IMG/VR virus record: IMGVR_UViG_3300048836_000129
Span: 1-53,935 of that record
Direction: 5' to 3' (one strand)
Length of the DNA: 53,935 nucleotides
Source: a virus
The notes under the pieces were generated by a model. It was not told the DNA's origin. It saw nothing but the letters and a program-made list of their open reading frames with translations, and did no database searches. Below are positions 5,975-52,836 of this stretch, in pieces; the first letter of the stretch is position 1; the number at the start of each line of letters is the position of its first letter. The position numbers were made by a program, and so were the translations under genes.

Positions 5975-7360
5975 ATGATAAAAAAAATACTCATCTTGAT
6001 ACTACTTGCCCCTTCGGTTTGTTTTGGCGCTATATCTGAAGTGTCCATTGTTGGCGGTAGTTTCACAATAAGCGGATCAGATTTTGGGAGCAATTCAGAG
6101 GGCGAATGGCTTGGAGACAACATAGAGGATGGTGTTGAAGGTGAACCTTTTACGAAAACATCATGGAACAATTATTACAATAACAAGGCTACTTATTCGG
6201 ACACTGATAAACATAGTGGATCTAAATCAATTTTATTTGATTTTTATGATAATGTATACGCGCGTGCCCTTGTTTTTGATTACGGGGCAACGGAAGTAAC
6301 TGAATCCTACATGACAGCGTGGGTAAAAATACAAAAGAATGATGATGCTCACACATTTCAATGGAAAAATTGGAAAATTAAAGACACTCCGGGTTACGAT
6401 TTTCAGACAACTATATACGGAGAGAATTGGCACTATGACACAACGGGTTGGGGCAACACAAGCGTTATGGTTATGCGAAATACTATAACGGACCAATCTT
6501 CAAAACGTACTGTTGTTAAAGATGGTTTTCTCTTAAATGAGTGGCAAAGATTGGAGGCTTATTATAAAAAAAGCAGCGCACTCGGTGTTAATGATGGGGT
6601 TTTTGAATGGCGGCGCGTAGGCCGTGCCAGTGGAGAGGTTATTGTTTCAAACTATAATATCATAACACATGACTCAACAAACGAAAACCAATTGTATAGA
6701 TATATTTTTCTTGGGCATTATTATGGGAATCTTTTGAATAGCGACAGCTCTCCTTATGCTGGCATAAGGGACGCAGAGATATATTATGATGACATCTATA
6801 TTAGCAGATCAAGATCACGTATAGAAATCGGCAACCACGCCGTATTCGCGAACTGCACTCACCGCGAAATACAACCAGCCATTACATGGTCTGATACCGG
6901 CATAACCGGGACATTCAACCAGGGAAGTTTTAATAACGGCGACACGGTTTATTTCTTCGTGGTTGATGAGGACGGTATTCCGTCTGATGGTTATCCAGTG
7001 ACGATTGGTGGAGATCCGTCAATCGCGAATCCGATTGTCGAAATACTCACAGAATCGGGCCAGACCACAGCGGCATCAGTTTTCATAATAACGGGAACCG
7101 CAACAGCCGATACAGGCCAAACGATTTCAGGTGTGACATGCTCTGGCCAGACGGTAACGCCCAATGATGGAACATGGGACGAACAGGTTGAGTCGTTTAC
7201 TTGTCTTGCGAATCTTTCTCTCGGGGAAAACGTTCTGATTTTTATAGGATCAGATGGGACAAGAACAGGAAGCGATTCAATAACAATCACAAGAACCATC
7301 CCCGGAGAATATACAACCCGAGGCGCTGGTTTTTCAATAAAAGGTTGCACTTTAAAATAA
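5975..7360 (+). CDS. Secreted or fibre protein with signal peptide, lectin-like and Ig-like domains
   Basis: A 461-residue protein, 3 nt after the collagen-like fibre. It begins MIKKILILILLAPSVCFG, again a Sec signal peptide. Residues about 40-290 look like a jelly-roll, concanavalin-like domain (many Trp/Tyr and paired strands, with YYDDIYISRSRSRIEIG near the end). The C-terminal 150 residues are Ig-like or big-like beta repeats (PIVEILTESGQTT..., GENVLIFIGSDG). No catalytic motif was recognised. Tandem location suggests it acts with the upstream fibre. Confidence 0.6.
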   Translation: MIKKILILILLAPSVCFGAISEVSIVGGSFTISGSDFGSNSEGEWLGDNIEDGVEGEPFTKTSWNNYYNNKATYSDTDKHSGSKSILFDFYDNVYARALVFDYGATEVTESYMTAWVKIQKNDDAHTFQWKNWKIKDTPGYDFQTTIYGENWHYDTTGWGNTSVMVMRNTITDQSSKRTVVKDGFLLNEWQRLEAYYKKSSALGVNDGVFEWRRVGRASGEVIVSNYNIITHDSTNENQLYRYIFLGHYYGNLLNSDSSPYAGIRDAEIYYDDIYISRSRSRIEIGNHAVFANCTHREIQPAITWSDTGITGTFNQGSFNNGDTVYFFVVDEDGIPSDGYPVTIGGDPSIANPIVEILTESGQTTAASVFIITGTATADTGQTISGVTCSGQTVTPNDGTWDEQVESFTCLANLSLGENVLIFIGSDGTRTGSDSITITRTIPGEYTTRGAGFSIKGCTLK

Positions 7361-7370
7361 GGAGTAAAAA

Positions 7371-9119
7371 ATGGCCGTTGAGCTTGACACAGACGGGAAT
7401 AAAGCAATTGACATAAACCTTGGTGGCACAAATGCAAAAACAGCGAGTGAAGCTCTTTCTAATCTCGGAGGCCAGCCGTATGATGCTGATTTGGATATTC
7501 TTTCAAGCGGGACATTTAGTCAAAAAAGGGCATTAATTGAGGCATTTGCAAAGCCAGTTCTCGGAGTCGATGCCCTTAGAACCACAATGGCTGATTTTGA
7601 TGGCGATGCAAGATATCTAACATATCATACATCAATTGGAGATGGCGGCCATGGAATGGTTGTATGGGACTCAACATCGACAGCAGCAGACGATAACGGT
7701 GTTACGATAGCCGTAACGGGTGTTGCAACTGGAAGATGGGTTAGGCAGTTAAACGGTTTTGTAACGCCGGAAATGTTTGGTTGTGACGGTATTGACGACC
7801 ATGTTCAGATACAGGCGGCTGTTAACACTAAAATGAATGTTATCGGTGGCGGGCCAACAAAGACTTACAACATAGGCGAAAAAATAATATTACCTCCGTT
7901 GGATAATACAACTCTGTATCGAAAGCAGCAAATCATCGACTTTAGAGGCGCAACGATGTATGCCGCTTCTGAGATTGATGCATGTTTTGAGCTCACATCC
8001 GGCCCATGGCCGTTAAACAACACCAGGAAACGAATCCTCAATGTCATATTTCGCGGCTTTATCAACGACTGCATCTTGTTGACAGGTAATCATCACTGGG
8101 GTCACGAGTTCGCCTTTTTATCCACTGTTGGTGGACCTGGCGTTGGGGCTTTCAATTCGGTCGTGCACATTCAAAATACATTGATGGGGTCTGGCGCAAA
8201 TCCGGGCCTTATCAGCATTCACGATATCTGGGGGCTTTCTTCAACAACACTTTCCGTTATCAAGATGAGTAGTGACAACCCTGTCCAGATTGATGATCTA
8301 ACTGTAAAGCGCGTTTATGTGGGCGATATACCTATTGTGGACGGGACCAAAACCGTATTGATTTATGCACACGTCGAAGACTGCTATGGTCAAAGCCACG
8401 GCGTTAATCTTGCCAATGACGGCAGTTATATGACTAAATCTACCATTGAGGGTATTTATATTGAAGCGAAGAACGCCGATACTTATGGCTTTAATGGTAT
8501 AGGGATCAATAATGTCTTCGATAGAATTAATATGTACGTCCCAGATCATACAATTCAGACAGGATGTCAGGCTGTTAGGCTTTTATCCGGAACACTCGGA
8601 AAAAGCAACGACAATAGCATAGGACCGGTATCACTCATATCGTCGGCCTTGGGCGTAGCTCCGTATGCGACAGTGCCATACCCTATTGTTTATATTCAAG
8701 CCGGCTATAGGAATAAGATAAAAGGTATCAATCCGGACTATCTTGTAAACGCTGTGGAATACGGGAGCACGGACTATTCCGCTTTTACGGGAACCGTTAG
8801 TATTGATAGCCCGAAAAACGTGAATAAAAGCGCAACATACAATTTAACACTAAACGATAACGGATTCACTTTTACAAATGACTCGGCAACGGCCAATGTC
8901 CTACTATACCTCCCGTCGGCGCAGGTTGGGCTTAAGTACACTTTTTATAGAACGAATGCAACATACACCATACGAGTGCTAAACTCATTTGGGCATACCA
9001 TTAACGGGATCGGAACGTCCATCACGTTATCCGCGCAGTACGATTGTATTACTCTTGAGTGTATAAAAACGGGTCAATGGACTATAACGGCGCAGAATAA
9101 CGCGCCTACAACCCCATGA
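7371..9119 (+). CDS. Tailspike-like beta-helix protein
   Basis: A 582-residue protein with a strong ribosome site (aaggagtaa). The N-terminal 60 residues are a fibre-attachment-like stretch. Around residues 135-160 the pattern VTPEMFGCDGIDDHVQIQAAV is the start of a pectate-lyase-3-like right-handed beta-helix, as in many depolymerase tailspikes. Repeated short strands follow to about residue 470, and a small beta C-terminal cap closes the protein. It may degrade host polysaccharide, but catalytic residues cannot be placed by eye. Unlike its two upstream neighbours it has no signal peptide. Confidence 0.72.
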   Translation: MAVELDTDGNKAIDINLGGTNAKTASEALSNLGGQPYDADLDILSSGTFSQKRALIEAFAKPVLGVDALRTTMADFDGDARYLTYHTSIGDGGHGMVVWDSTSTAADDNGVTIAVTGVATGRWVRQLNGFVTPEMFGCDGIDDHVQIQAAVNTKMNVIGGGPTKTYNIGEKIILPPLDNTTLYRKQQIIDFRGATMYAASEIDACFELTSGPWPLNNTRKRILNVIFRGFINDCILLTGNHHWGHEFAFLSTVGGPGVGAFNSVVHIQNTLMGSGANPGLISIHDIWGLSSTTLSVIKMSSDNPVQIDDLTVKRVYVGDIPIVDGTKTVLIYAHVEDCYGQSHGVNLANDGSYMTKSTIEGIYIEAKNADTYGFNGIGINNVFDRINMYVPDHTIQTGCQAVRLLSGTLGKSNDNSIGPVSLISSALGVAPYATVPYPIVYIQAGYRNKIKGINPDYLVNAVEYGSTDYSAFTGTVSIDSPKNVNKSATYNLTLNDNGFTFTNDSATANVLLYLPSAQVGLKYTFYRTNATYTIRVLNSFGHTINGIGTSITLSAQYDCITLECIKTGQWTITAQNNAPTTP

Positions 9120-9130
9120 GGCTTCACATA

Positions 9131-9214
9131 ATGAAACCATTCGATAACATTTGCCATGCGTGTTTGACTGCGAGTATGTGTTTCATGCCGCATATTTTTG
9201 AGCTTGCAAAATGA
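9131..9214 (+). CDS. Very small hypothetical protein (27 aa)
   Basis: A short frame beginning MKPFDNICHACLTASMC lies between the tailspike and phospholipase-like genes. It has a GAGG ribosome site 9 nt upstream, and its TGA overlaps the next ATG (ATGA), the coupling style used across this genome. It has four Cys/His-type residues near the N-terminus. No homology is recognised, and it could be chance. Confidence 0.35.
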   Translation: MKPFDNICHACLTASMCFMPHIFELAK

Positions 9215-9597
9215 ATATTTCAAAATTAATAAAAGAATCGTCAGAAAAATACAATCTTGAATTAAACAATGGATTGTATTTTTTTGATGACGCAACTCTT
9301 GGAATGATCATAAATTCCTGCGGGCCGAAGGGAATCGGGGATAAAATTGTACCAGATTCAATTCTTGGAGTTCGAATCACAGTGGCTTGTCAGATCCATG
9401 ATTTTGATTATTTCGTCGGTCAGACGTTCGAAGATAAGAAGAACGCTGACCGACGATTTCTTGAGAATATGAGAAAGATCATTGAGTATGAGTCAAAGTT
9501 CTGGCCCTTGAAATATATCCGGTTAAAAATAGCAAAGGGATATTACGATGCCGTTAAATACGCTGGATATGAAGCATTTCAAGACAAGTCACTTTGA
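9211..9597 (+). CDS. Phospholipase A2-like phage protein
   Basis: A 128-residue protein. The segment CGPKGIGDKIVPDS (about residues 35-48) followed by ACQIHDFDYFVGQT (about 60-73) matches the phage PLA2-like family, where the His-Asp pair in C-x2-H-D-x2-Y is the catalytic dyad of secreted phospholipases A2. The helix after it (KKNADRRFLENM) and the C-terminal YYDAVKYAGYEAF are also family hallmarks. It lies right after the fibres, so it may act on host membranes at entry or exit. Enzyme activity is inferred, not shown. Confidence 0.72.
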   Translation: MNISKLIKESSEKYNLELNNGLYFFDDATLGMIINSCGPKGIGDKIVPDSILGVRITVACQIHDFDYFVGQTFEDKKNADRRFLENMRKIIEYESKFWPLKYIRLKIAKGYYDAVKYAGYEAFQDKSL

Positions 9598-9777
9598 TTT
9601 ATTGGGGTCAAGTTCCATCTCAAGATTGTCAATAAAATCACTGAATTTATCCTCTTTTTCATAACCTTCACAATGATGAACGGTGCATGTCGCCCGGCTT
9701 TTGCATGATCTGCAAATTTCGGGAAATGCACCAACACTTTCTTGTGCCATATCAAGTGGCATGTATCCTGTTGTCAT
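9589..9777 (-). CDS. Small hypothetical protein with Cys cluster
   Basis: A 62-residue protein whose ATG overlaps the stop of the gene upstream of it on the minus strand. It contains C-x2-C (CRSCKS) followed by C-x4-HHC, which looks like a small metal-binding knuckle. The C-terminus is acidic. Function is unknown. It is the last gene of a four-gene minus-strand cassette and its end overlaps the end of the phospholipase-like gene by 9 nt. Confidence 0.55.
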   Translation of the reverse strand: MTTGYMPLDMAQESVGAFPEICRSCKSRATCTVHHCEGYEKEDKFSDFIDNLEMELDPNKSK

Positions 9778-10067
9778 TTTTCAATCTCCTGTTCTTGGCA
9801 TTCTTCTATGTAATACAGATCATTTTTAAAAACAACAAAATCCAACTCTTCCAATGGGTAAATATCACACCAGTCATCATATTTACCACCAATCCAAATA
9901 TCAGTTCCAAACCAATTTAATATAATTAAATACATATCATCATAGAACACACAATGACATTTTTTCAAAAAATCATGAATGACACCGCCTTCGATTTTTA
10001 TTTCATTCGATTTTAGAACGGATATAAAAGTTTCTACTGTTAGGCTGTATGGCTTGCAATCATCCAT
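9774..10067 (-). CDS. Hypothetical protein
   Basis: A 97-residue protein starting MDDCKPYSL. I chose this ATG because it has a strong GGAGGG site and overlaps the upstream stop codon (TAATG); a longer frame from 10082 would bury that ribosome site. The sequence is acidic and aromatic-rich with no recognised motif. It is co-transcribed with its neighbours. Confidence 0.6.
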   Translation of the reverse strand: MDDCKPYSLTVETFISVLKSNEIKIEGGVIHDFLKKCHCVFYDDMYLIILNWFGTDIWIGGKYDDWCDIYPLEELDFVVFKNDLYYIEECQEQEIEK

Positions 10068-10858: not shown

Positions 10859-11489
10859 TATGAAAATATGGGAGAATCTAAAACAAGTCCCCCCTACATG
10901 CGCCAAACAAATTCAAGCAGGGCGACTGAAAGGTATGACCGATATAAAACCACAATGGCGAATCCAGGCCATGACAAACCAATTTGGGCCATGTGGCGTT
11001 GGTTGGAAATATACTATTGATAAACAATGGATAGAGCAAGGTTCAGACGGGAACGTGTTCGCTTTTGTTAACATTTCGTTGTATTTTAAGCATGATTCAA
11101 AATGGAGTGACGCCATACCAGGGACGGGTGGATCAATGCTTATAGTCAAAGAAAAAAATGGTCTACATAACAACGATGAATCATACAAGATGGCCCTTAC
11201 AGATGCTCTGTCTGTTGCCATGAAATCTATAGGAGTGGCCGCCGATATATATTTAGGCGCATTCGATGGATCAAAATACAATAACACATCTGATCTTACA
11301 AACGACCCCATAGAAAAAATAAGTTTAAAACAAGTCTCTGAATTGACAGATCTTATTCTTGAATCTGCATCGAATGAATCTAAATTTTTGGGATATATGG
11401 GGGTTGAAAATATTGAAGATATAACAACTAATAACTACGAAAAAGGCAAAAAAGCGCTTTTAGCCAAAATAGAAGGGATGAAGAAATGA
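10848..11489 (+). CDS. Rad52-like single-strand annealing protein (DUF1071/ERF-like)
   Basis: A 213-residue protein. The ATG at 10848 is preferred because an AAAGGAGG site lies 9 nt upstream; a TTG 6 nt earlier is too close to it. The N-terminal half carries IKPQWRIQAMTNQFGP and a later ESYKMALTDALSVAMKSIGV, which matches phage annealing proteins of the Rad52-like / DUF1071 group. These coat single-stranded DNA and anneal it during phage recombination. The next gene is a YqaJ exonuclease overlapping by 4 nt, the standard two-component recombinase pair, which strengthens the call. The C-terminal 60 residues are a charged helix-rich tail. Confidence 0.75.
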   Translation: MHDNMKIWENLKQVPPTCAKQIQAGRLKGMTDIKPQWRIQAMTNQFGPCGVGWKYTIDKQWIEQGSDGNVFAFVNISLYFKHDSKWSDAIPGTGGSMLIVKEKNGLHNNDESYKMALTDALSVAMKSIGVAADIYLGAFDGSKYNNTSDLTNDPIEKISLKQVSELTDLILESASNESKFLGYMGVENIEDITTNNYEKGKKALLAKIEGMKK

Positions 11490-12091
11490 TCATCATCCGA
11501 GACATCGAACAGGGAAAGCCAGAATGGGACCAACTCCGTCTTGGAATCCCCACAGCTTCAAAGTTTGGAGATATCATCACGGCAGATGGCAAGCATTCAA
11601 AAAGCCGTCAAGCTTATCTTTATCGCCTTGCAGGTGAGCGTATCACAGGTCAGGTTTACAAGGGATGGCATGGGGACGTTTTCGACCGTGGTCATGAGAT
11701 GGAACAGGAGATTAGAGAAACATACGAATTTATAAAAGATTGCAACGTTGAAACCGTGGCTTTTATTTATAAAGACGAAATAAGAAGATTCGGAGTTTCT
11801 CCAGATGGAATTATGATCGATCTTAAAGGTGGTTTCGAGGCAAAGTCAGCCGCACCGAATGTTCAGGCTGAAAGACTTCATAAAGGCTGGACAGGCGCGG
11901 AACACCACAGGCAAGTTATGGGCTGTCTGCTTGCTACTGGATTTGAATGGTGGGATCTTGTTTCATATTGCCCCGGCATGAAACCGGTAATCAAAAGATT
12001 CTACCGTGATGAAAAGTTTCTTGAAATCCTTGAAAATGAAATCAATATATTTTGCGATGAACTTGACGAGATCGTAAGGGCCATATCATGA
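11486..12091 (+). CDS. YqaJ-like exonuclease (lambda Exo type)
   Basis: A 201-residue protein beginning MIIIRDIEQGKPEWDQLRLG, then TASKFGDII, the opening of YqaJ viral recombinase nucleases. The PD-(D/E)xK core is visible: GVSPDGIMI (about residues 102-110) and GFEAKSA (about 114-120), then a helix EHHRQVMGCLLATG that carries the conserved Gln. It resects double-stranded DNA 5' to 3' to feed the upstream annealing protein. Length is usual for the family and no active-site residue looks missing. Confidence 0.9.
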   Translation: MIIIRDIEQGKPEWDQLRLGIPTASKFGDIITADGKHSKSRQAYLYRLAGERITGQVYKGWHGDVFDRGHEMEQEIRETYEFIKDCNVETVAFIYKDEIRRFGVSPDGIMIDLKGGFEAKSAAPNVQAERLHKGWTGAEHHRQVMGCLLATGFEWWDLVSYCPGMKPVIKRFYRDEKFLEILENEINIFCDELDEIVRAIS

Positions 12092-12321
12092 AAAAACTTG
12101 ATTATAAAATGACCGGTGATGTTCTGAACGGGATGACCCTTGAAGCAGCAGCAGATAAACACGGATACGCCTCAAAACAATCGGCACAATATACTTTCCG
12201 TTTGACCGTTGTCAAATTTTTTCTTCCATCTGAAAGGTCTGAAATTGATAAAAACAACCATGATTTGAGATGGTTAAGAAAAAGGTATAAACAGACACAA
12301 AATGAATATTTCAAACTTTAA
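12088..12321 (+). CDS. Small helix-turn-helix-like protein
   Basis: A 77-residue basic protein, ATGA-coupled to the exonuclease. The stretch DVLNGMTLEAAADKHGYASKQ looks like a helix-turn-helix of the kind found in small phage regulators or transposase-like DNA binders. The C-terminus is Lys/Arg-rich (WLRKRYKQTQ). No firm family. Confidence 0.55.
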   Translation: MKKLDYKMTGDVLNGMTLEAAADKHGYASKQSAQYTFRLTVVKFFLPSERSEIDKNNHDLRWLRKRYKQTQNEYFKL

Positions 12322-12331
12322 GGAGAAGAAA

Positions 12332-12697
12332 ATGAAAACTATGAATTATGAATTAAAAAAAACAAAAAATGGATACATGTATAGTGGTTCTCTCAATCTT
12401 GAAGGCTGCATCGGCTTGACATCTTTGCCTGAGAATCTTTCCGTGGGTGATTCTATCGATCTTGAGGGTTGTACCGGATTGACCAATTATCCGGCTGTCC
12501 ATAACTGCGGCAATGAAAACAGAACAATCTATATTAAGAAACAAAATCCTAAATTAATACATATAGGATGTTTTGTGGGGACCAAAAAAGAGGCAATCAA
12601 CGCTGTAAAGCTAAAATACGGTCACGATTCAAATGATTATGTGGCCAAAATAAAAAAATGTTTCAAAATTGCAGAGTCAAAATGGGGAGGTAAATAA
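12332..12697 (+). CDS. Short leucine-rich-repeat-like protein
   Basis: A 121-residue protein; the ATG at 12332 has AAGGAG 7 nt upstream, better than the upstream in-frame start. Residues about 20-52 hold two related units (LEGCIGLTSLPENL and LEGCTGLTNYPAV), like the GC-x-LTSLP repeats of short phage and bacterial leucine-rich proteins. The C-terminal half (KEAINAVKLKYGHD, KIKKCFKIAESKWG) is helical. The role is unknown; such repeats usually bind proteins. Confidence 0.62.
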   Translation: MKTMNYELKKTKNGYMYSGSLNLEGCIGLTSLPENLSVGDSIDLEGCTGLTNYPAVHNCGNENRTIYIKKQNPKLIHIGCFVGTKKEAINAVKLKYGHDSNDYVAKIKKCFKIAESKWGGK

Positions 12698-14277: not shown

Positions 14278-14304
14278 GTAACACATATGCGCCAGGATGA
14301 GAGA

Positions 14305-14313
14305 TGATATAAT
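14305..14313 (+). promoter_or_regulatory. Extended -10 promoter for the radical SAM gene
   Basis: TGA followed directly by TATAAT is a perfect extended -10 (TGnTATAAT), 29 nt before the start codon. No good -35 box is visible, which extended -10 promoters can do without. Confidence 0.5.
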
Positions 14314-14329
14314 TTTAAAAAAATTATAT
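14307..14329 (+). repeat. Perfect AT-rich hairpin upstream of the radical SAM start
   Basis: A 10-bp perfect inverted repeat, ATATAATTTT and its complement, flanks a 3-nt AAA loop. It overlaps the -10 box and ends one base before the GGAG ribosome site (14331-14334). It could affect promoter opening or start-site access. Confidence 0.6.
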
Positions 14330-14341
14330 AGGAGAAGTAAA

Positions 14342-15349
14342 ATGAAAATTTATAACATTCCCACAGGGAAAATCGCAATAATGGATGGAGAAAAAGGAAA
14401 ACTTGAATTTCTTTCAATTGGTGATTATGGCGCAATAAATAATGTGAAAGCTGATTTTCTCGGATTAACAAAAGAAATTGATGGTGTTCCGAATGGAAAA
14501 ATAATGCCGCTTGAAGAAAAATGGGTTGTTACAATTTCTTCTCAATACTCATGTGCATCGAATTGTAAATTCTGTGATGTGCCAAAAGTTAACAATGGCC
14601 GCGCTATTAATGCGACATACAATGATTTGAAAAATCAAGTTGTCAATGCTTTGAAATTTTATCCAGAAGTTCAAGCAACAAAAAGATTGAATGTTCATGT
14701 TGCAAGAATGGGAGAACCTACTTGGAATAAAAATGTAATAACTTTTGGAAAAGATTTGTTGAAAATCGTAAGACCCTATATCAATAGATCGCACGTGCAT
14801 CCTGTTATATCAACTATGTTGCCAAAGAAAAATAAAAAACTCATGGAATTTTTAAATGAGTGGACAATTGAAATTAAAAATGAAAAATTTCGCGGTGCCG
14901 CCGGGCTTCAATTTTCTATCAATTCAACCAATGATGATCAAAGAAATGATATGTTTAATGGATCTTCATTGTCTCTTAATGAGATTTCAGAAATTGGTAA
15001 AAACTTAATTGATCCAATTGGCAGGAAATATGCTTTGAATTTTGCGCTTGCGGATGATTATGAAATTGATGCCAAAAAACTTAAATCTCTTTTCAATCCG
15101 AATAAATTTATGGTTAAAATTACTCCTTTGCATAAAACAAAATCATGTGATGAAAATAAAATCACGACTACAGGAGGATATGAATATTTCACACCTTATA
15201 AAAAAGTCGAAGAAGATTTGAAAAATGAAGGATTTGAGGTTCTTGTTTTTGTTCCTTCATATGACGAAGACCTCGGAAGAATTACGTGCGGAAATGCTAT
15301 TCTATCTGGAACAAAACCAGAAGTTGAACATAGTGTGGAATATATTTGA
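14342..15349 (+). CDS. Radical SAM enzyme, RlmN/Cfr-like
   Basis: A 335-residue protein with a good GGAG ribosome site before ATG 14342. The radical SAM cluster motif is visible as CASNCKFCDVP (C-x3-C-x2-C). Further on, HVARMGEPTWN matches the GMGEPxxN signature of RlmN/Cfr adenine methyltransferases, and near the C-terminus GRITCGNA holds a Cys in the place of their catalytic methyl-carrying Cys. Those enzymes methylate 23S rRNA A2503 (and some tRNAs). Here the N-terminal domain is short. Target RNA is unknown; it might modify host ribosomes or tRNA. Codon use looks more AT-rich than its neighbours, consistent with transfer. Confidence 0.72.
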   Translation: MKIYNIPTGKIAIMDGEKGKLEFLSIGDYGAINNVKADFLGLTKEIDGVPNGKIMPLEEKWVVTISSQYSCASNCKFCDVPKVNNGRAINATYNDLKNQVVNALKFYPEVQATKRLNVHVARMGEPTWNKNVITFGKDLLKIVRPYINRSHVHPVISTMLPKKNKKLMEFLNEWTIEIKNEKFRGAAGLQFSINSTNDDQRNDMFNGSSLSLNEISEIGKNLIDPIGRKYALNFALADDYEIDAKKLKSLFNPNKFMVKITPLHKTKSCDENKITTTGGYEYFTPYKKVEEDLKNEGFEVLVFVPSYDEDLGRITCGNAILSGTKPEVEHSVEYI

Positions 15350-17352: not shown

Positions 17353-19272
17353 ATGGAAATAATCGATCAAACAATTACAGACAACTTTGCAATGTATCAC
17401 GGAGATTGCGTTGAGGTTATAAAGGGAATACCAGACAATTCAATCCATTATTCAATTTTCTCGCCCCCGTTCGCGTCGTTGTTCACATATTCAAATTCTG
17501 ATAGAGATATGGGAAATTGCAAAACTGATGAAGAATTTAATACCCACTTTTCATTTCTTGTAAACGATCTATACCGTGTTATCATGAATGGACGTCTTGT
17601 TTCTGTGCATTGTATGAATATTCCAAGTATGAAAGAAAGAGACGGAGTGATTGGGCTAAAAGATTTCAGGGGTGATATAATCCGGTTGTTTCAAAAGGCT
17701 GGTTTTATATATCACTCAGAAGTTTGTATTTGGAAAGACCCCTTGATTGAAGCCACGAGAACAAAATCTCTTGGTCTTATGCACAAACAAATCCAGAAAG
17801 ACAGCTCCATGTGTCGCCAAGGTCTCCCAGACTATATTTGCACGTTCAGAAAGCCCGGAGAAAATCCTGAAAGGATTGGACATCCTAATGGGTTCGAATC
17901 ATTCCATGGAGAAAATGAACCTACAGAAAAAGGGATAAAATACAGTCACAATGTTTGGCGACGATATGCTGATCCCATCTGGCTTGACATTGACCAAACA
18001 AAAACTTTGAATTATAGAATGGCAAGAGACAAGGAAGATGAGAGGCATATTTGTCTTTCTGAAGGTTCCCTTGTTTTATCAAACGAAGGTTTTAAATCTA
18101 TCGAATCCATAAACATCGGGGATCTTGTACTAACACACAATGGGGACTGGAAACCCGTTATAGCCAAGGAGTACACTGGATTCAAAGAGGTTGTAAGGAC
18201 TAAAGCCACTGGCGTACCTAATCTTATAACAACTCCTACACATAAAATATGGTCAAGATCTTTGCAATATAAATATCATCCAACAAAGAAGTTTAATGAC
18301 CCCGAATGGAAAGACGCTAAAGATCTTGAAAAGTGCTATGTGAATCAAAAACTTCCACCTGTAATAAGTGAAGAAATTTTGACGGATAGAGAATGGTGGG
18401 TAGTGGGTCGGTTTCTTGCGGATGGCCATGTCGGAACACGAAATGATTTTTTCATAAGTGTTGGGAACCACAAATATCAGGAGTTTGAAGACAATGTTGG
18501 GATTGATTTTTTTGGGAATAAACATATCATAGGCAATTCAACTCAATTCAGATTAAAAAAAGTTTCAAACAATTTGAAAACAATCCTTGAAAAATGCGGA
18601 AAACTTGCCCACGAGAAACATGTCCCTATTGAGGGCATTTGTTTGAATGAAAGACAATCGGAATTTTTGTTGTCAGGTTATTTATCAGGCGATGGCCATG
18701 TAGATAAACATGGAAAAACACATGCTACTTCTGTCTCAAGGGCTCTTTTGCTTGGAATGTCCATTGTTATTCAAAGATGCAAAAACAAGATTGTATCTAT
18801 TTACCCAGGAAGAAAACCCGGGTATAAAATCATTGAAGGAAGAAAAGTCTATAAAAGACAAGAATGGATAATGCTTATTCCTAAGGATAATGCACATCAT
18901 TCATTCGGGAAAATTGTTGAAGATGGGGCATGGAAAAGAGTGTCAAAAATTCAAGATGCTGGTTTTTCTCATGTGTGGAATATTAGAGTTCTTGATGATG
19001 AATCTTACACGGCTGAGGGGTGTATTGTTAAAAATTGTCCCCTACAACTACAAACAATAGCCCGTTGCGTTGAATTATGGACAAACAAAGGCGATACCGT
19101 TTTAAGCCCCTTTGGTGGAATAGGGTCTGAAGGTTATCAGTCTCTTTTAATGGGAAGAAAATATATAGGTATTGAACTTAAAGAATCATATTATAAACAC
19201 GCCGTGAAACATCTCATGCAAGTCGAAAACAGACCAAAACAACTTGATTTATTTGGAGAGGAAATCATATGA
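17353..19272 (+). CDS. DNA methylase interrupted by a LAGLIDADG intein
   Basis: A 639-residue precursor. The extein is 311 residues, with a catalytic FSPPFASLF motif near residue 36 (N4/N6 amino-methyltransferase type), and the conserved HICPLQLQTIARCVELWT and VLSPFGGIGSEGY (SAM-binding) once the intein is removed. The intein (residues 234-561) is inserted at the Cys of HIC-PLQ, a highly conserved site. The mature enzyme should methylate DNA, perhaps to protect phage DNA from restriction, or to work with the helicase upstream. Confidence 0.88.
   Translation: MEIIDQTITDNFAMYHGDCVEVIKGIPDNSIHYSIFSPPFASLFTYSNSDRDMGNCKTDEEFNTHFSFLVNDLYRVIMNGRLVSVHCMNIPSMKERDGVIGLKDFRGDIIRLFQKAGFIYHSEVCIWKDPLIEATRTKSLGLMHKQIQKDSSMCRQGLPDYICTFRKPGENPERIGHPNGFESFHGENEPTEKGIKYSHNVWRRYADPIWLDIDQTKTLNYRMARDKEDERHICLSEGSLVLSNEGFKSIESINIGDLVLTHNGDWKPVIAKEYTGFKEVVRTKATGVPNLITTPTHKIWSRSLQYKYHPTKKFNDPEWKDAKDLEKCYVNQKLPPVISEEILTDREWWVVGRFLADGHVGTRNDFFISVGNHKYQEFEDNVGIDFFGNKHIIGNSTQFRLKKVSNNLKTILEKCGKLAHEKHVPIEGICLNERQSEFLLSGYLSGDGHVDKHGKTHATSVSRALLLGMSIVIQRCKNKIVSIYPGRKPGYKIIEGRKVYKRQEWIMLIPKDNAHHSFGKIVEDGAWKRVSKIQDAGFSHVWNIRVLDDESYTAEGCIVKNCPLQLQTIARCVELWTNKGDTVLSPFGGIGSEGYQSLLMGRKYIGIELKESYYKHAVKHLMQVENRPKQLDLFGEEII
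18052..19035 (+). mobile_element. Intein with LAGLIDADG homing endonuclease domain
   Basis: A 328-residue in-frame insertion. It starts with Cys1 (CLSEGSLVLSNEGF), the usual Hint N-block A, and ends GCIVKN before the +1 Cys. Block B appears as TTPTHKIW. Two endonuclease motifs are visible, VVGRFLADGHV and LLSGYLSGDGHV. The penultimate residue is Lys, not the usual His; some inteins splice without it. The element is a mobile selfish gene and should be spliced out of the protein. Confidence 0.88.
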
Positions 19273-35163: not shown

Positions 35164-35595
35164 ATGAAGACCAAAGAACCAAAAAAGAAAATGGGAAGGC
35201 CACCGAAGGAAATCAGCAAAAGCATATTCGAGGAACTATGCAAAATCCAATGCACCGAAGAAGAGATAGCCGGTGTGTTTAGTTGTTCGGTAGATACCAT
35301 ATACCGATTCTGCAAAAAAACGTATGATAACAAAAGTTTTGCGGATGTTTTTAAACAGTTTTCATCCCATGGAAAGTCTGCCATACGTAGGCAGCAGTTT
35401 CACATCATGAACAACGGAAACGCAGCTATGGCCATATGGTTAGGGAAACAATATTTGGGTCAAAAGGAGCAACCGGAGATTACGTTATATGATGGTGGAG
35501 AGGCATTGACCCCAGATGAACGGGCACGGCTTACCAGGATGAGGATGCAAACGGAACTTTCCCCGCTTGACAATTTATGCGAAAGTAATAAATGA
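35164..35595 (+). CDS. Terminase small subunit-like protein
   Basis: A 143-residue protein. MGRPPKEISKSIFEELCKIQ and TEEEIAGVFSCSVDTIYRFCKKTY are an AT-hook-like start and helix-turn-helix as in terminase small subunits. The C-terminus (LGKQYLGQKEQPEI) also fits. It would bind the packaging site. The large subunit lies two genes on. Family is inferred. Confidence 0.68.
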   Translation: MKTKEPKKKMGRPPKEISKSIFEELCKIQCTEEEIAGVFSCSVDTIYRFCKKTYDNKSFADVFKQFSSHGKSAIRRQQFHIMNNGNAAMAIWLGKQYLGQKEQPEITLYDGGEALTPDERARLTRMRMQTELSPLDNLCESNK

Positions 35596-46039: not shown

Positions 46040-46660
46040 ATGAGTTTTTCTAATGGTTTTCGTGGAACTGTAGGCGGGTCAATCCAGACAACCTACTATG
46101 ATGACATGGGTAAGTCAATCCCTGGTATGCTTATGAGTGCCAGTGATTACAATATGACCGACACCTATTTCATCGGTGAAACGGCTGGTATCGGTGCTGG
46201 TATCGGAGTCCGTCTGACCGATGCAACCGACGCTTTCGGCTTTCAGATTCCATCCCTGGCCGCTAAACTGCCCGAGGGCGACGAGGGTGAAAACGATTTC
46301 GGCGGAGTGATTGTTTTCGATCAGGCCATGCAGTCCGATGAAAACGGCGAAAACGGATGGGCTTATCGCCGTCCTTGCCGTGTTCTTCGTCCTGTTCGTA
46401 CCGGTGGCCGGATTGCAGTTCGCGTTGCCGTTGCGGTAGACCCCACCACAGATACCGTCAACTGGGTAATTGATGCAGATGACGCCGGAACATATGCGCT
46501 CGGCTCATTCGTTCCCACGGCTCTCGGTGGTGGCGCGGCTGGCGTGTCCGTTCTGCTTTCAGCCGCTCGATGGGTGTCTGCTGCTGATGCTGGTGGAATC
46601 GCTGTTATCGAATTTCTCGGTAACTCTTCCGCTGTTTACAATTCTAACAGCTCTCTGTAA
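46040..46660 (+). CDS. Head decoration or minor capsid protein
   Basis: A 206-residue, Gly/Ala-rich beta protein with an aaggag site. GIGAGIGVRLTDATDAFGFQIP and GGRIAVRVAVAVDPTTDTVN recall DUF2190-like decoration proteins. It is placed between the protease and the major capsid gene, the standard decoration position. Confidence 0.65.
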   Translation: MSFSNGFRGTVGGSIQTTYYDDMGKSIPGMLMSASDYNMTDTYFIGETAGIGAGIGVRLTDATDAFGFQIPSLAAKLPEGDEGENDFGGVIVFDQAMQSDENGENGWAYRRPCRVLRPVRTGGRIAVRVAVAVDPTTDTVNWVIDADDAGTYALGSFVPTALGGGAAGVSVLLSAARWVSAADAGGIAVIEFLGNSSAVYNSNSSL

Positions 46661-47663: not shown

Positions 47664-48064
47664 TGGCACGAGTTAAAAAAACAGCGGCGGAGGATAAAAC
47701 CGAAGCCGCTGAACCAAAAGTAATTAAAGTTCAGTCCGCACCAAAAGAAATCAGAGTCGCGAACCACATGCGGAGAGATATTGAATTTCCCATGAGCCGT
47801 GGTTATATTCTGACAGGGCACCTTACTCTTTTTTCAGGCACAGTGAACACTCTTGACCAGGACCAGTGGGACAGGATCAAAAACGATCCAATTGTACTGG
47901 CAATGCTGAAAAGCGGAGCGCTTGACGTTGTAAAATCTAACGCCGATTCCGTACCAGTTTCCAACGAACGCCTTTCAAACCTTGAGATTCCGGACGACCT
48001 GAAATATGATTCCGAAATACAGGGCGATGTAAGCGCAAAAGTGGTGCAGCAGCAGTATGTCTAA
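47663..48064 (+). CDS. Hypothetical structural protein
   Basis: A 133-residue protein with a basic, Ala-rich N-terminus (KKTAAEDKTEAAEPK), then NHMRRDIEFPMSRGYI and DQWDRIKNDPIVLAMLKSG. It sits between the capsid and connector genes. A head-completion role is possible. Confidence 0.58.
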   Translation: MARVKKTAAEDKTEAAEPKVIKVQSAPKEIRVANHMRRDIEFPMSRGYILTGHLTLFSGTVNTLDQDQWDRIKNDPIVLAMLKSGALDVVKSNADSVPVSNERLSNLEIPDDLKYDSEIQGDVSAKVVQQQYV

Positions 48065-48449
48065 TACAGCTCCAACATATAGTGAGTTTGTCGCAAAATA
48101 TCCTATTTTTGCCACGGCTGATCAATCTATTGTTGAATCCCAGATTGATTTGACAACAAGGTTTTTGGATGCCAACGCATGGGGCAATTATTATTCGGAT
48201 GCCGTTGAATACGATGTCGCGCACAATATCACTATAATGGTCCAGATGCAATCAGGCTTAACCGGCGGTCAGCAAGCGGCCGCCGGGCCTATTTCCTCTG
48301 TATCTGCCGCCGGAATGTCAACAAGTTTCGAGTCCGTATCAAAATCAACCGATACAGACTCGGAATCCTGGTACAAAAAAACCGGATACGGTCAGATGTT
48401 TTTACGTTTACGAAGTTCCGTGATGGGTTATGGTACATTGTCCGTATGA
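48057..48449 (+). CDS. DUF4054-like head-tail connector protein
   Basis: A 130-residue protein. PTYSEFVAKYPIFATADQSIVESQIDLTTRFLD then a Gly/Ser-rich stretch (AAAGPISSVSAAGMSTSFE) and LRLRSSVMGYGTLSV are DUF4054 features. It likely closes the head or joins head and tail. The glycan cassette starts 4 nt inside its end. Confidence 0.82.
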   Translation: MSNTAPTYSEFVAKYPIFATADQSIVESQIDLTTRFLDANAWGNYYSDAVEYDVAHNITIMVQMQSGLTGGQQAAAGPISSVSAAGMSTSFESVSKSTDTDSESWYKKTGYGQMFLRLRSSVMGYGTLSV

Positions 48450-49420
48450 AAATATTCATGACAATCCCAGGTTTTGCACCACATGGTGGAATCCGTGTCA
48501 TAATTGAATGGGCTAATAGATTATGCCGAAACAACACGGTTTTCCTGTTTAATAAACGCTGGGAACCCGTAAATTGGATAAACATAGATAAACGTGTCGT
48601 AAAATGTCAATCTGATAAATACCTCAAAGATTCAGATTGTCTCATTATCACATCCCCACACCACATAGATTTAGAAAATCATCCGTTAGCACCTGAAAAG
48701 AAATTCATCTTCATCCAAATGCTTGAGCATTTGTTTCAGCCAAAAAATATTCATTGGGTGAGTCAATGCAAGCGGTTCTATCTTTCAAAAAACCCATTGA
48801 TTTCAATATCTAAATGGAATATTGAGCGTATTCAGAAGATGGGCCGTAAAGGTGAAATTTTCTATATAGGAAACGGAATAAATATAAAAGATTTCCCTAT
48901 ACGGAAAGCAAAAAAAGATAAAAAAACGATCCTTGTTGAAGGATGGGAAGCCACAAACCCTTCAAAAGACTATCATAGAATGGCCCACAAAGCCTGCATG
49001 AAGCTGAAAAAACAAGGGTTCAAAATCATGGCCTATTCTCAAGTTCCACTTAAAACTTATCCTGAATTAGTCGATGAATATTATCACTGCCCGAGTAATG
49101 CAAGGTTGAACCAGCTTTATGAACAAGCCTCGATACTCATAAAAGCTACAAAATACGATGCACGGTCCACGTCTCCTATTGAGGCCATGACGAAAGGAAC
49201 TCCTACAGTGAGGGGAATAATTCAGGGTGATGACGACCTAATCCACCTTGTTAATTCTTACAGGTGCGATTATAATGATTCGCAAATATATGAAGGCGCA
49301 ATAAGGTTATTGACTGATAACGAGTTATATTCAAAGCTTTCAAATAATTGTATTAACTATGTAAAAGAAAATACATGGGAAGCTTGGATGCCCAAAATTG
49401 AGGAGATTTTGAAGGCATGA
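48446..49420 (+). CDS. Glycosyltransferase, GT4-like
   Basis: A 324-residue protein, ATGA-coupled to the connector gene. GGIRVIIEWANRLC near the N-terminus and STSPIEAMTKGTPTVRG (E-x7-type C-terminal motif) are marks of GT-B glycosyltransferases of family 4. It would transfer sugar from a nucleotide sugar. First gene of a six-gene surface-modification cassette. Confidence 0.8.
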   Translation: MKIFMTIPGFAPHGGIRVIIEWANRLCRNNTVFLFNKRWEPVNWINIDKRVVKCQSDKYLKDSDCLIITSPHHIDLENHPLAPEKKFIFIQMLEHLFQPKNIHWVSQCKRFYLSKNPLISISKWNIERIQKMGRKGEIFYIGNGINIKDFPIRKAKKDKKTILVEGWEATNPSKDYHRMAHKACMKLKKQGFKIMAYSQVPLKTYPELVDEYYHCPSNARLNQLYEQASILIKATKYDARSTSPIEAMTKGTPTVRGIIQGDDDLIHLVNSYRCDYNDSQIYEGAIRLLTDNELYSKLSNNCINYVKENTWEAWMPKIEEILKA

Positions 49421-50052
49421 GCAAAACCGTTATTTTATCAGTTGTATATACAGAACCAGAATGGAATCAGACTCTTGAACGTATTGAGTGTTGCCATGAT
49501 TTCGACAAAGTTTTTGTTGATCGTGGCGGTGTAGGGTCTTTGGCGAAAGCCTACAATGACGGATTTAAGCAGATTCCATCAAATACCGACTATGTATGGT
49601 TTGTTTCAAATGTTTTGTTTGATCCTGAGATTTTAAAACGGCTTATCGGGAAAATGGGCGAAACAGGCTTTGCAGCGATTCATCCAAGCTTTGACAATTC
49701 CGATCATCTTTTTTGCAGATCAAACGGAAGCGATGATGTTCTTTCTGTCCCGTTCGTTGAGTTCACGGCTCCGATAGTTCGTTACGATGTCTTTAAAAAT
49801 CATATGCTTGACGAGGATATGCCCTATTGGGGCCATGATCTTGACTGGGGCAATCGTGTCAGGAATGCCGGATACAAGATAGGTGTTGATCATGGATGCA
49901 AGATTGGCCATGAATATATCCGCAATGCTGGATCGGAATGGCCGGACACGATTATCAGGCGAGAACTTAGAAAAAAAACAGATGGGCAAACAACAAGAGC
50001 CCTTGAAAGAAAATATGGGAAAAAATGGCGGGAGCTTTTAAAATGGACGTAA
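49417..50052 (+). CDS. Glycosyltransferase, GT2-like
   Basis: A 211-residue protein, ATGA-coupled. VVYTEPEWNQTLERIECC, VWFVSNVLFDPEIL and MPYWGHDLDWGNRVRNAGYK fit a GT-A fold, family 2 like. It may act after the GT4 enzyme in building a short glycan. Motif DXD is not certain (the best place is VLFD). Confidence 0.68.
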   Translation: MSKTVILSVVYTEPEWNQTLERIECCHDFDKVFVDRGGVGSLAKAYNDGFKQIPSNTDYVWFVSNVLFDPEILKRLIGKMGETGFAAIHPSFDNSDHLFCRSNGSDDVLSVPFVEFTAPIVRYDVFKNHMLDEDMPYWGHDLDWGNRVRNAGYKIGVDHGCKIGHEYIRNAGSEWPDTIIRRELRKKTDGQTTRALERKYGKKWRELLKWT

Positions 50053-50654
50053 AAGAAGTCTGGGCAAAAAACGATTATTACGACATGGCTGAACCATATA
50101 TGGATGCCCAATGGGATGAAATTATCTGGCCTAAGATAAAAGATCTTGATTTTTCAAATGTCATTGACCTTGCCGCCGGTCATGGGCGTAATAGTATGAA
50201 GCTGGCCCCCATTTCCAAAAAACTCACTATCGTTGACATTTGCCCGGAAAATATTGAATTTTGTTCGAACAGATTTAAAGACCTGAACAATATTAATTTT
50301 GCCGTTTGCGATGGCAAGACAATCCCGGTAAAATCAAAGAGCGTTTCCCTTATGTATTGCTTTGATGCAATGGTGCATTTCGATTCGGATACAGTTGAAT
50401 CCTATATAAAAGAGATGTCCAGGGTTTTAAAAAAAGGCGGGAACGCTTTCCTTCACTATTCTAACTGGTCAGGATTCTGCAATGATGACTGGAGATACAA
50501 TCCGCACGCCAGACATTATATGACGCAGGATTTTTTCAAGGCATTATGCCAAAAGTACGGGTTGACCATTCTTTCAACAGAGTTTCTAACATGGGGCGAA
50601 GATCCGGATTATAGATTTGAAGATCTTGACGCCGTTTCCGTCTTGGTGAAATGA
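50043..50654 (+). CDS. SAM-dependent methyltransferase
   Basis: A 203-residue protein with a GGGAG site; the start at 50043 lies inside the previous gene. VIDLAAGHGRNSMKLA is SAM-binding motif I, then LTIVDICPENIEFC and MYCFDAMVHF, and MSRVLKKGGNAFLHYS. It is a class I methyltransferase, probably methylating the sugar made by the cassette. The substrate is inferred. Confidence 0.82.
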   Translation: MDVKEVWAKNDYYDMAEPYMDAQWDEIIWPKIKDLDFSNVIDLAAGHGRNSMKLAPISKKLTIVDICPENIEFCSNRFKDLNNINFAVCDGKTIPVKSKSVSLMYCFDAMVHFDSDTVESYIKEMSRVLKKGGNAFLHYSNWSGFCNDDWRYNPHARHYMTQDFFKALCQKYGLTILSTEFLTWGEDPDYRFEDLDAVSVLVK

Positions 50655-51205
50655 TGCCAGGAATTGTGATCAGAAAAAACAAAGCGGTTTATTGGCCTAT
50701 CCCGAAGAATGCTTGCACGGCTATAAAACTACATCTTTGCAATTATATAGGGATTCCGGCTGGAGAAAATCCCCATGATGCACCGTTCGAATGGACTGAT
50801 GGCGTTATAGATGGATTTGATAATTTCGCAATCGTTCGGAATCCATATATCAGACTGTTTTCATTATGGAAAAATAAATGTATTATTGATGAAAGCCTTG
50901 ATATGAATGTATTTTCACGGTGGACAGATATTTTTTATCATGGAATATCTTTCCATGATTTTGTTCGGGGAATTGTATCAATTCCTGTGATGGAATCGGA
51001 CCCGCATTTCTCACCGCAGGTTATGCAAATGCCCGCTGATTGCGAAACAGTTAGGCTTATGGATATCAAGGCATTCATGAGGGGCATTCTTCCGATTGCA
51101 AACGATAGCGGCGATGATGACTGGAGAGAACATTACACCCCAGAACTCAAAAAAATCGTATCAAACCACTACAGAGAGGATTTCATTCGATTTGGATACG
51201 TGTAA
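50651..51205 (+). CDS. Sulfotransferase family protein
   Basis: A 184-residue protein, ATGA-coupled. VYWPIPKNACTAIKLHL is the 5'-phosphosulfate-binding loop and FAIVRNPYIRLFSLWKNK is the 3'-phosphate loop of PAPS-dependent sulfotransferases (family 2). It would sulfate a carbohydrate. The rest is shorter than usual but contiguous. Confidence 0.78.
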   Translation: MMPGIVIRKNKAVYWPIPKNACTAIKLHLCNYIGIPAGENPHDAPFEWTDGVIDGFDNFAIVRNPYIRLFSLWKNKCIIDESLDMNVFSRWTDIFYHGISFHDFVRGIVSIPVMESDPHFSPQVMQMPADCETVRLMDIKAFMRGILPIANDSGDDDWREHYTPELKKIVSNHYREDFIRFGYV

Positions 51206-51620
51206 AACCATATTGATTGATTGCGATGGCGTTTTAACAAATGGCAATCTGACCATTGACCATAACGGTGAAAAGCTTTTTAAGCAGTTTCATGTCCGAG
51301 ACGTTCGGGCAATCCGGGAGCTTGTGGCAAATGGATATGAGGTTGTAATCATTTCCGCTGACGACTGGCCCGGAATATTTCATTATGCTGAAAAAGTCGG
51401 TGCCGTTGTGCATATCGCCAAAGATAAATCGAACATCCCGTTTGAAAACTTTATAGCCATTGGTGACGACGCATGGGACGTTAAAATGTTGCGTAATGCT
51501 ACAATGGCATTTTGTCCCAACGATGCCGACAGGTCAGTTTTGCGAGTAAACGGAATCTATCGCCTTGAAAAAGATGGTGGTAAGGGCGTAATATCTGAAA
51601 TGATTGGTTACATTCTATGA
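51192..51620 (+). CDS. HAD phosphatase, KdsC-like
   Basis: A 142-residue protein. A TTG at 51192 is the likely start, after GAGGA; the frame is also open upstream. ILIDCDGVLTNGN is HAD motif I (D-x-D), IISADDWPG motif II-like, and IAIGDDAWDVKML motif IV. It resembles KDO-8-phosphate phosphatase (KdsC) and other sugar-acid phosphatases. It may make an activated or unusual sugar for the cassette. Confidence 0.75.
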   Translation: MDTCKTILIDCDGVLTNGNLTIDHNGEKLFKQFHVRDVRAIRELVANGYEVVIISADDWPGIFHYAEKVGAVVHIAKDKSNIPFENFIAIGDDAWDVKMLRNATMAFCPNDADRSVLRVNGIYRLEKDGGKGVISEMIGYIL

Positions 51621-52345
51621 TGGATGTTGTTTACACAATCGGAAATTTCGGGAAGCATGGAGACGGATTTGAACTCAGATATTCCTTGCGTTCTCTTGAA
51701 GAACAAGATTGGGTTAGGAATATCTATATTCTCGGTAATTGTCCTGATTTTTTGAAAAATGTAAAACATATTCCATGCCCTGACCATTACAGAAAAAGCA
51801 AAGATGCCAACATAATCAATAAGGTTTTGATGGCGTGTTCATATGATGTATCCGATGATTTCATCGTGAATAGTGATGACCATTATATTTTAAAGAAAAT
51901 AGATCGTGAAGAACTCGGACCATGGATTGAAAATTCCAATGTGAAAGAACAGGCCCTAAAAAAACGATTTTCATCGACATGGGCATTGCGCCTGATTGAG
52001 ACAGAAAACTGGTGCAAGAAAAACGGATATCATGGTGGCATATTCCAGAGTCATATTCCGTATGTTGTTAATAAAACGAAATATCAGCGCACTATGTGTT
52101 CCGTACCATGGGCACAAGATAACGGTTTGCTGACCCATGTATATCAAATGATCGAATGCCCGGAAGCTGAAATTGAGCCGGAAGGGTTCACGGTACGAAT
52201 CCACGAACAATTGACAAATATCAATACCGTGGATTCAATGCTAAAAAAGGCTACATTTCTGAACCACAATGATCATGGATTGAGCAACGCCTTGAAAGAT
52301 TGGCTTATTCAAAGATTCCCAAAAAAATCAAAGTGGGAAAAATGA
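51617..52345 (+). CDS. Stealth-family-like sugar-phosphotransferase
   Basis: A 242-residue protein, ATGA-coupled. FELRYSLRSLEEQDWVRNIYILGNCP and DDFIVNSDDHYILKK match the first two conserved regions of Stealth proteins, which transfer sugar-phosphates onto polysaccharides. Last gene of the glycan cassette; its stop overlaps the next structural gene. Confidence 0.75.
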   Translation: MMDVVYTIGNFGKHGDGFELRYSLRSLEEQDWVRNIYILGNCPDFLKNVKHIPCPDHYRKSKDANIINKVLMACSYDVSDDFIVNSDDHYILKKIDREELGPWIENSNVKEQALKKRFSSTWALRLIETENWCKKNGYHGGIFQSHIPYVVNKTKYQRTMCSVPWAQDNGLLTHVYQMIECPEAEIEPEGFTVRIHEQLTNINTVDSMLKKATFLNHNDHGLSNALKDWLIQRFPKKSKWEK

Positions 52346-52836
52346 GCGCAAAAGTAAAACGCAAAAATCCCGATGCAATGAAACAACGCCTTGGAGTTTT
52401 ACGCGAAATAGCCACAAACGAGGTTGCGCTCGGATTTCCAAAAGGGAAAGCTCAGGCGTATTCAGGAAATGAACACCCCGGCTTTGAGGAAGAATGCCCA
52501 CAGGAAGTCGCAACCGTGGCGGCTAAAAATGAATACGGCATAGGAGTACCTCGAAGGCCCTTTATGTCGGCGTCACGGAATCAAATAGAATCCGAATGCA
52601 CACCCATAATGAAGGCCATGAGCCGAACAGGTGCAAGCGTGAAAGCGGCCTTGAATCTCATGAAAGCATCGGGAGAAAAGGGAAAATCAGTAATTCAGAA
52701 AAAAATCATTGACTTTTCTACTCCACCAAATAGCCAGAAAACGATAGATCTGAAGGGTGAAAACAATCCCCTTGTATGGACTGGCCACATGGTAAGATCC
52801 ACAACCTATGTTGTAAGAAAAAAAGGTAGATCATGA
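52342..52836 (+). CDS. Tail-completion / HK97 gp10-like protein
   Basis: A 164-residue basic protein starting MSAKVKRKNPDAMKQRLG; the ATG at 52342 overlaps the Stealth stop. GFEEECPQEVATVAAKNEYGIGVPRRPFMSASRNQ matches the PRPF signature of phage tail-completion or neck proteins. It marks the return to structural genes after the glycan cassette. Confidence 0.75.
   Translation: MSAKVKRKNPDAMKQRLGVLREIATNEVALGFPKGKAQAYSGNEHPGFEEECPQEVATVAAKNEYGIGVPRRPFMSASRNQIESECTPIMKAMSRTGASVKAALNLMKASGEKGKSVIQKKIIDFSTPPNSQKTIDLKGENNPLVWTGHMVRSTTYVVRKKGRS

Follow-up and report, generated by a model that had tools for sequence, protein, structure and literature searches.

What would a phage gain from keeping six putative sugar-modifying genes in the middle of its head/neck operon, and on what would their products act? 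The question is raised by positions 48446-52345 of IMG/VR virus record IMGVR_UViG_3300048836_000129, an incomplete record that was analyzed over its whole length of 53,935 bases (the window). Here six intact open reading frames (ORFs; genes A to F) lie on the same strand between the genes for a DUF4054 adaptor and a Neck1 protein. We consider it moderately probable that the cassette specifies a cytosolic pathway, expressed late, for the assembly of a short virion glycan and that the likeliest acceptor of this glycan is a C-terminal tail ending in Ser-Ser-x (x, one small or hydrophobic residue) on a head protein encoded nearby.

Family, motif, and fold comparisons place all six products among enzymes of glycan assembly or modification. 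All genes are on the plus strand. Gene A (48446..49420; 324 amino acids) is a GT4-like glycosyltransferase (GT) gene (PF00534, E = 3e-4, under the Pfam cutoff; phrog_2170, 1e-7), with a D-x7-E motif that is kept in relatives L002, L007, L008, and L021. The product of B (49417..50052; 211 amino acids) matched no Pfam family, and its predicted structure has a GT-A fold (predicted local distance difference test score, 89; top PDB match, E = 1.6e-7), with closest structural matches including the wall-teichoic-acid GTs TarP, TarS, and RmlT. Judged from this model, B is assignable as a GT-A-fold GT and not as a member of the GT2 family. Gene C (50043..50654) encodes an S-adenosylmethionine methyltransferase (Methyltransf_25, 2.5e-17; class I motif VIDLAAGHGRNS), and gene D (50651..51205) encodes a sulfotransferase of the type dependent on 3′-phosphoadenosine 5′-phosphosulfate (PAPS) (Sulfotransfer_2, E = 1.1e-10), in which both the 5′-phosphosulfate-binding and 3′-phosphate-binding motifs (PKNACTAIK and IVRNPYIRL) are present and kept in three lineages. 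Gene E (51192..51620) encodes a KdsC-type HAD phosphatase (HAD match, 1e-7; as a family profile, KdsC type at 1e-16) with both the DxDGVLTxG motif, which holds the DxD nucleophile, and GDDxxD. Finally, F (51617..52345; 242 amino acids) has the fold of Stealth-family sugar-1-phosphotransferases. Its Stealth_CR2 match (PF11380, E = 2.8e-7) scores 31.1 bits, under the Pfam cutoff of 39.4, and its CR4 match is at 0.01, but its structure model matches the Mycobacterium tuberculosis Stealth enzyme CpsY (E = 7e-11) and the GlcNAc-1-phosphotransferase GNPTAB (1.5e-8), and a profile built from seven sequences finds GNPTAB at 5e-10. By its CR2 region and modeled fold, F belongs to the Stealth/GNPTAB group and is predicted to transfer sugar-1-phosphate.

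The cassette is tightly built into the structural operon. On its left, the stop codon of the DUF4054 adaptor gene (48057..48449, plus strand; PF13262, 4e-14) overlaps the start of A, and on its right, the stop codon of F overlaps in the same manner with the start of the Neck1/tail-completion gene (52342..52836, plus strand; phrog_222, “tail completion or Neck1,” 4e-29), which bears out the original prediction of a six-gene cassette between a DUF4054 connector and the next head/neck gene. Refined start sites are ATG at 52342 for Neck1 and, most likely, ATG at 50043 for C and TTG at 51192 for E, the last deduced within a frame that is open from 51096. That prediction also described ATGA-type overlaps throughout; these are exact at five junctions (DUF4054-A, A-B, C-D, E-F, and F-Neck1), but B and C overlap by 10 bases and D and E by 14 bases if the deduced start of E is right. 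With that start, stop and start overlap at all seven junctions, which ties the cassette translationally to the late structural genes. The vacant slot of relative L018 is likewise a stop/start overlap. A programmed frameshift joining D to E was considered but is not claimed, as no slippery site was recognized.

Relatives were gathered by profile searches with B, E, F, and the capsid protein and represent an uncultivated lineage of contractile-tailed phages with a common head operon and ∼40 to 60% protein identity. Their cassette homologues lie within the same structural operon as in the window, not elsewhere. In L002, A, B, E, and F follow DUF4054; in L007, A and B are fused and are followed by E and F; and in the L008 and L021 groups, the order is A, B, C, a D-E fusion, and F. 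A further fragment, L013, carries B, a different methyltransferase, E, and F ahead of Neck1. The arrangement of DUF4054, cassette, and Neck1 is complete in the window, L007, L008, and L021. Outside this lineage, genes for B, a methyltransferase, and E are found ahead of a terminase-like gene in the unrelated phage L011. The equal order and slot in independent relatives at this level of protein identity argue against chance, and the cassette genes are as diverged as the capsid and head-protein genes, or somewhat more so, which indicates that the association is old. Two local irregularities were seen: the stretch between the Stealth and sheath genes of L002 (5303-5527) lacks Neck1, the small head gene next to it, and the tail terminator (moved, lost, or misassembled), and at 12198-13180 of L023, which is otherwise nearly identical to L021, gene A is broken by a frame break (a pseudogene or an assembly error).

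The same slot is empty in nine relatives (L018, L024, L025, L026, L027, L028, L029, L031, and L032), in which DUF4054 is followed by Neck1. Searches of the whole records behind these nine found neither A nor B and a trace of Stealth in one only: the slot of L024 (3381-3506) retains the last ∼40 residues of the Stealth protein, and the cassette was therefore formerly present there and was then lost. An 11-base inverted repeat (GTTGGCGTAGT...ACTACGCCAAC; 3330-3390 of L024) lies right before the remnant and could mark a deletion end. The cassette is thus an optional module occupying one fixed slot, which is filled in five lineages. Compared across lineages, its gene content indicates a stable GT4-GT2-KdsC-Stealth core, with putative methylation and sulfation genes as optional extras between B and E: C is not present in L002 or L007, and L013 and L011 have a different methyltransferase in its place. 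The sulfation and methylation originally proposed are accordingly optional, and neither is a defining part of the system. The fusions link A with B and D with E in predicted function. A role for E in removing 3′-phosphoadenosine 5′-phosphate as a partner of D is disfavored, since E is present without D in L002, L007, L013, and L011.

If the glycan is placed on the virion, its acceptor may be recognizable among the structural proteins. Ten of these were compared between filled and empty phages for cassette-specific Ser, Thr, Tyr, or Asn columns, and the differences found were a tail on one head protein and single columns only, in the capsid protein, the head protein, and DUF4054. The gene for this candidate acceptor (46040..46660, plus strand), directly before the major capsid gene, is assigned to phrog_563 (virion structural protein) and has the position of the cement protein of Pam3. 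Its product ends just past a conserved I-E-hydrophobic motif in all eight empty phages that could be scored but runs 12 to 13 residues past it in all five filled phages; in the window the tail is encoded at 46622..46657 (plus strand). The five tails (NSSAVYNSNSSL, NVVPVLSTDDSSL, TLTATVPVNSSSV, AIVGVTPTDESSF, and TLTATVPGNSSSA) differ in sequence, yet all close with Ser-Ser-x, and this type of tail occurs only in cassette-bearing relatives. L024, which lost the cassette, has no tail. In each of four cassette-bearing records, a C terminus of the form S/T-S-x is unique to the head protein (among 74 genes in the window, 85 in L008, 80 in L021, and 37 in L007). The match between tail and cassette has an exact permutation p of 8e-4, with no correction for kinship or for the inspection of several proteins.

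Several observations weigh against this acceptor or against parts of the proposed pathway. The tail association emerged after several proteins had been inspected. Monophyly of the cassette-bearing phages is not rejected (approximately unbiased test, p = 0.25), the backbone of the tree is weak, and a tree-based test of correlated change offers one well-supported independent contrast only, so that shared ancestry could account for the association. The label of “decoration” protein is based on the PHROG assignment and synteny; comparison of the head protein with solved structures and, by profile, with the Pam3 cement protein gave no significant match, and a search for it in GenBank phages found none. 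The tail of L016 measures 11 residues and contains no Ser-Ser, and the visible part of this record, which leaves the slot outside, shows no cassette. Both L016 and L022 have shorter tails and slots that are not visible, and they count as predictions rather than as counterexamples: a cassette or a scar of one would be expected in both, and neither in L030, whose head protein has no tail. L016 also encodes a capsid protein with a serine-rich C terminus (9023-10048; ending ...QADSSS) and a tail-fiber-like gene after the head genes (11005-12621). Among the enzymes, catalytic motifs are kept, and not missing from most members, with the exception of the DxD motif of B, whose position is occupied by S/T-N in 6/6 aligned members. 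Hence the original gene labels stand by family or fold for the GT4-like, methyltransferase, sulfotransferase, KdsC-like, and Stealth-like products, and for B the GT-A fold is supported but the motif is not. Near some Stealth homologues of other phages, considered below, no structural neighbor was recognized (L004 to L006, L043/L044, L047, L048, and L052).

From the domains and the gene context we infer the enzyme activities, the order of steps, the structure of the glycan, the acceptor, and the purpose. Sugar and sulfate donors would be host nucleotide sugars and PAPS, because no sugar-nucleotide synthesis gene was recognized. The first sugar may be placed by B or A and extended by the other; C and D, where encoded, would methylate and sulfate the glycan; and F would attach sugar-1-phosphate through a phosphodiester, the phosphate-linked sugar of the original prediction likewise being read from fold and motif. 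E would take the phosphate off a sugar-phosphate intermediate. No synthase for 3-deoxy-d-manno-octulosonic acid (Kdo) or sialic acid and no cytidine monophosphate (CMP)-transferase was recognized in the record, and the substrate of E is therefore probably another phosphosugar. No transmembrane stretch is predicted in any of the six proteins, and the acceptor and donors should consequently be cytosolic. The Ser-Ser-x tail of the decoration-like head protein could be loaded before or during assembly, which would fit expression with the head genes, and placement on this protein would give many glycan copies per head. The most likely purpose would be shielding of the head or altered surface binding. 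The earlier suggestion that the product is placed on the virion is strengthened by the serine tail, with the acceptor itself a candidate.

Other assignments of the same enzymes were weighed against this pathway. Within the virion, the glycan could instead sit on the major capsid protein, DUF4054, a neck protein, or a tail protein, in which case the serine tail would be a lineage marker only. The cassette does adjoin DUF4054 and Neck1 and not the head protein, the L016 capsid protein is itself serine ended, and the tree is not resolved well enough to separate the association from common descent; but beyond single columns, the other structural proteins tested show no presence/absence difference, and the tails vary in sequence but retain their terminal Ser-Ser-x, which makes this alternative unlikely in our judgment. 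We see a slim chance that, late in infection, the enzymes instead act on the host's lipopolysaccharide, its capsule, or a teichoic-like polymer, for instance to keep released particles from binding debris or to exclude other phages. Stealth enzymes are known from capsules as hexose-1-phosphate transferases (PMC5974469), the nearest folds of B include TarP, TarS, and RmlT, and an OmpA-domain protein encoded in the window points to a Gram-negative host, which would have a surface of this kind. Genes A to F include neither a membrane flippase nor a membrane GT of the kind found in serotype-conversion (gtr) clusters, however, and the cassette has no polymerase or lipid-linked sugar transferase; the missing membrane segments argue against lipid-linked or surface-polymer assembly. 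The cassette is also placed and coupled within the late structural operon, and a profile of B found 0 relatives in 84,980 bacterial and archaeal genomes. A capsid profile likewise found none in these genomes.

Hypermodification of phage DNA is a further candidate role: PMC10829341 connects phage GTs and sulfotransferases with the modification of bases. No hydroxymethylase, TET/JBP, or other base-priming enzyme was found among ∼20 larger nonstructural window proteins scanned in this incomplete record, which argues against DNA modification; the thymidylate synthase is an ordinary ThyX, the cassette is within the head operon, and many relatives live without it. This explanation is highly improbable. 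Least credible of all is a passenger (moron) cassette in a tolerant site with no function in the virion: the cassette is indeed optional, internally variable, and lost in L024, but its core proteins are whole and retain their catalytic motifs at ∼40 to 60% identity, with a divergence like that of the structural genes; its slot is constant; and in unrelated phages, too, Stealth genes are repeatedly found close to structural genes.

That recurrence is broad. Stealth homologues are present in many unrelated phages, and neighbors within ∼5 genes of Stealth were tested by family search, with L003, L063, and L066 to L068 not tested or not settled. The neighbors include tape measure (L035), head closure (L040), head-tail adaptor (L041), and Dit plus tape measure (L046) proteins; portal (L042, L064, and, weakly, L054); terminase (L045, L049, L055, L057, L058, L060, and, by annotation, Mycobacterium phage Fionnbharth, whose Stealth homologue, gp6, lies three genes ahead of it); protease (L049, L051, L054, L056, L059, L061, and L062); and capsid proteins (L050, L053, and L065). 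A GT precedes Stealth in L041, L042, L045, L047, and L048. In L043 and L044, Stealth is followed by a phrog_3347 sulfotransferase gene that adjoins it or lies near it (L043, 747-1406; L044, 2807-3406), an independent pairing of the two chemistries in another phage type. Because much of any phage genome consists of structural genes, the Stealth context serves as supporting evidence only. In L052, a reverse transcriptase (phrog_1423; 6132-7562) is a few genes ahead of the Stealth homologue.

Three features elsewhere in the window concern other functions. An N6/N4 DNA methyltransferase gene (17353-19272) is apparently split by an intein-like insert with Hint and LAGLIDADG matches, a phrog_24834 protein (14297-15349) has a weak radical-SAM match, and a weak SAVED-domain match (35164-35595; E = 0.0055, under the cutoff) may reflect a relative of cyclic-oligonucleotide sensors or chance.

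To our knowledge, glycans have been demonstrated on the particles of very few phages. In the lineage described here, phages with and without the cassette can be compared at one constant site, one of them bearing the scar of its loss, and a candidate tag for the acceptor is at hand, which makes the pairing of enzymes and acceptor directly testable. A defined role in the virion can now be tested for phage sulfotransferase and Stealth genes, which are mostly catalogued as metabolic genes of unknown use, and the Ser-Ser-x tail offers an easy way to predict further cases from sequence. We tentatively extend the favored pathway to a dedicated glyco-tagging system, a possibility that we do not hold firmly, in which the phage encodes both the Ser-Ser-x tag and the enzymes that load it with a phosphodiester-linked glycan, sulfated and methylated in some lineages, tag and enzymes being gained and lost together. 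If so, phage heads would receive an anionic, capsule-like coat.

The nearest known counterpart is virion glycosylation in mycobacteriophages (Che8, Corndog, and Myrna). According to PMC12619734 and PMC12363180, which cite Freeman 2023, GTs encoded by these phages attach shielding glycans to capsid and tail-tube proteins at their C termini. Phage-encoded GTs are common to both systems, and the C-terminal glycans resemble the candidate C-terminal tail of the window. In contrast, the window lineage has four to six enzymes between adaptor and neck genes, including Stealth and KdsC-type proteins and optional sulfo- and methyltransferases, and its candidate acceptor is a head protein different from the capsid and tail-tube acceptors named there. 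F shares sequence motifs and fold with the Stealth enzymes (capsule polymerases, CpsY, and GNPTAB) but is a short phage form among virion genes, with no capsule locus. Sulfation and Stealth transfer by phage are rarely described in the literature searched, as the original prediction had it, although phage Stealth genes themselves are common. D belongs to the same PAPS-dependent family as other phage sulfotransferases (phrog_3347 and cyanophage and OM43-phage genes), whose function has been called unclear (PMC10580990), but overlaps or is fused to a KdsC-type phosphatase inside a glycan cassette. Searches with D alone in IMG/VR and GenBank phages gave no match, nor did searches with A and B in GenBank phages. 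E has the motifs of the KdsC/NulO-9-phosphatase HAD family in a setting that, unlike theirs, has no recognized Kdo or sialic-acid synthase or CMP-transferase around it. By analogy, the window system would combine virion glycosylation of the mycobacteriophage kind with a predicted Stealth chemistry.

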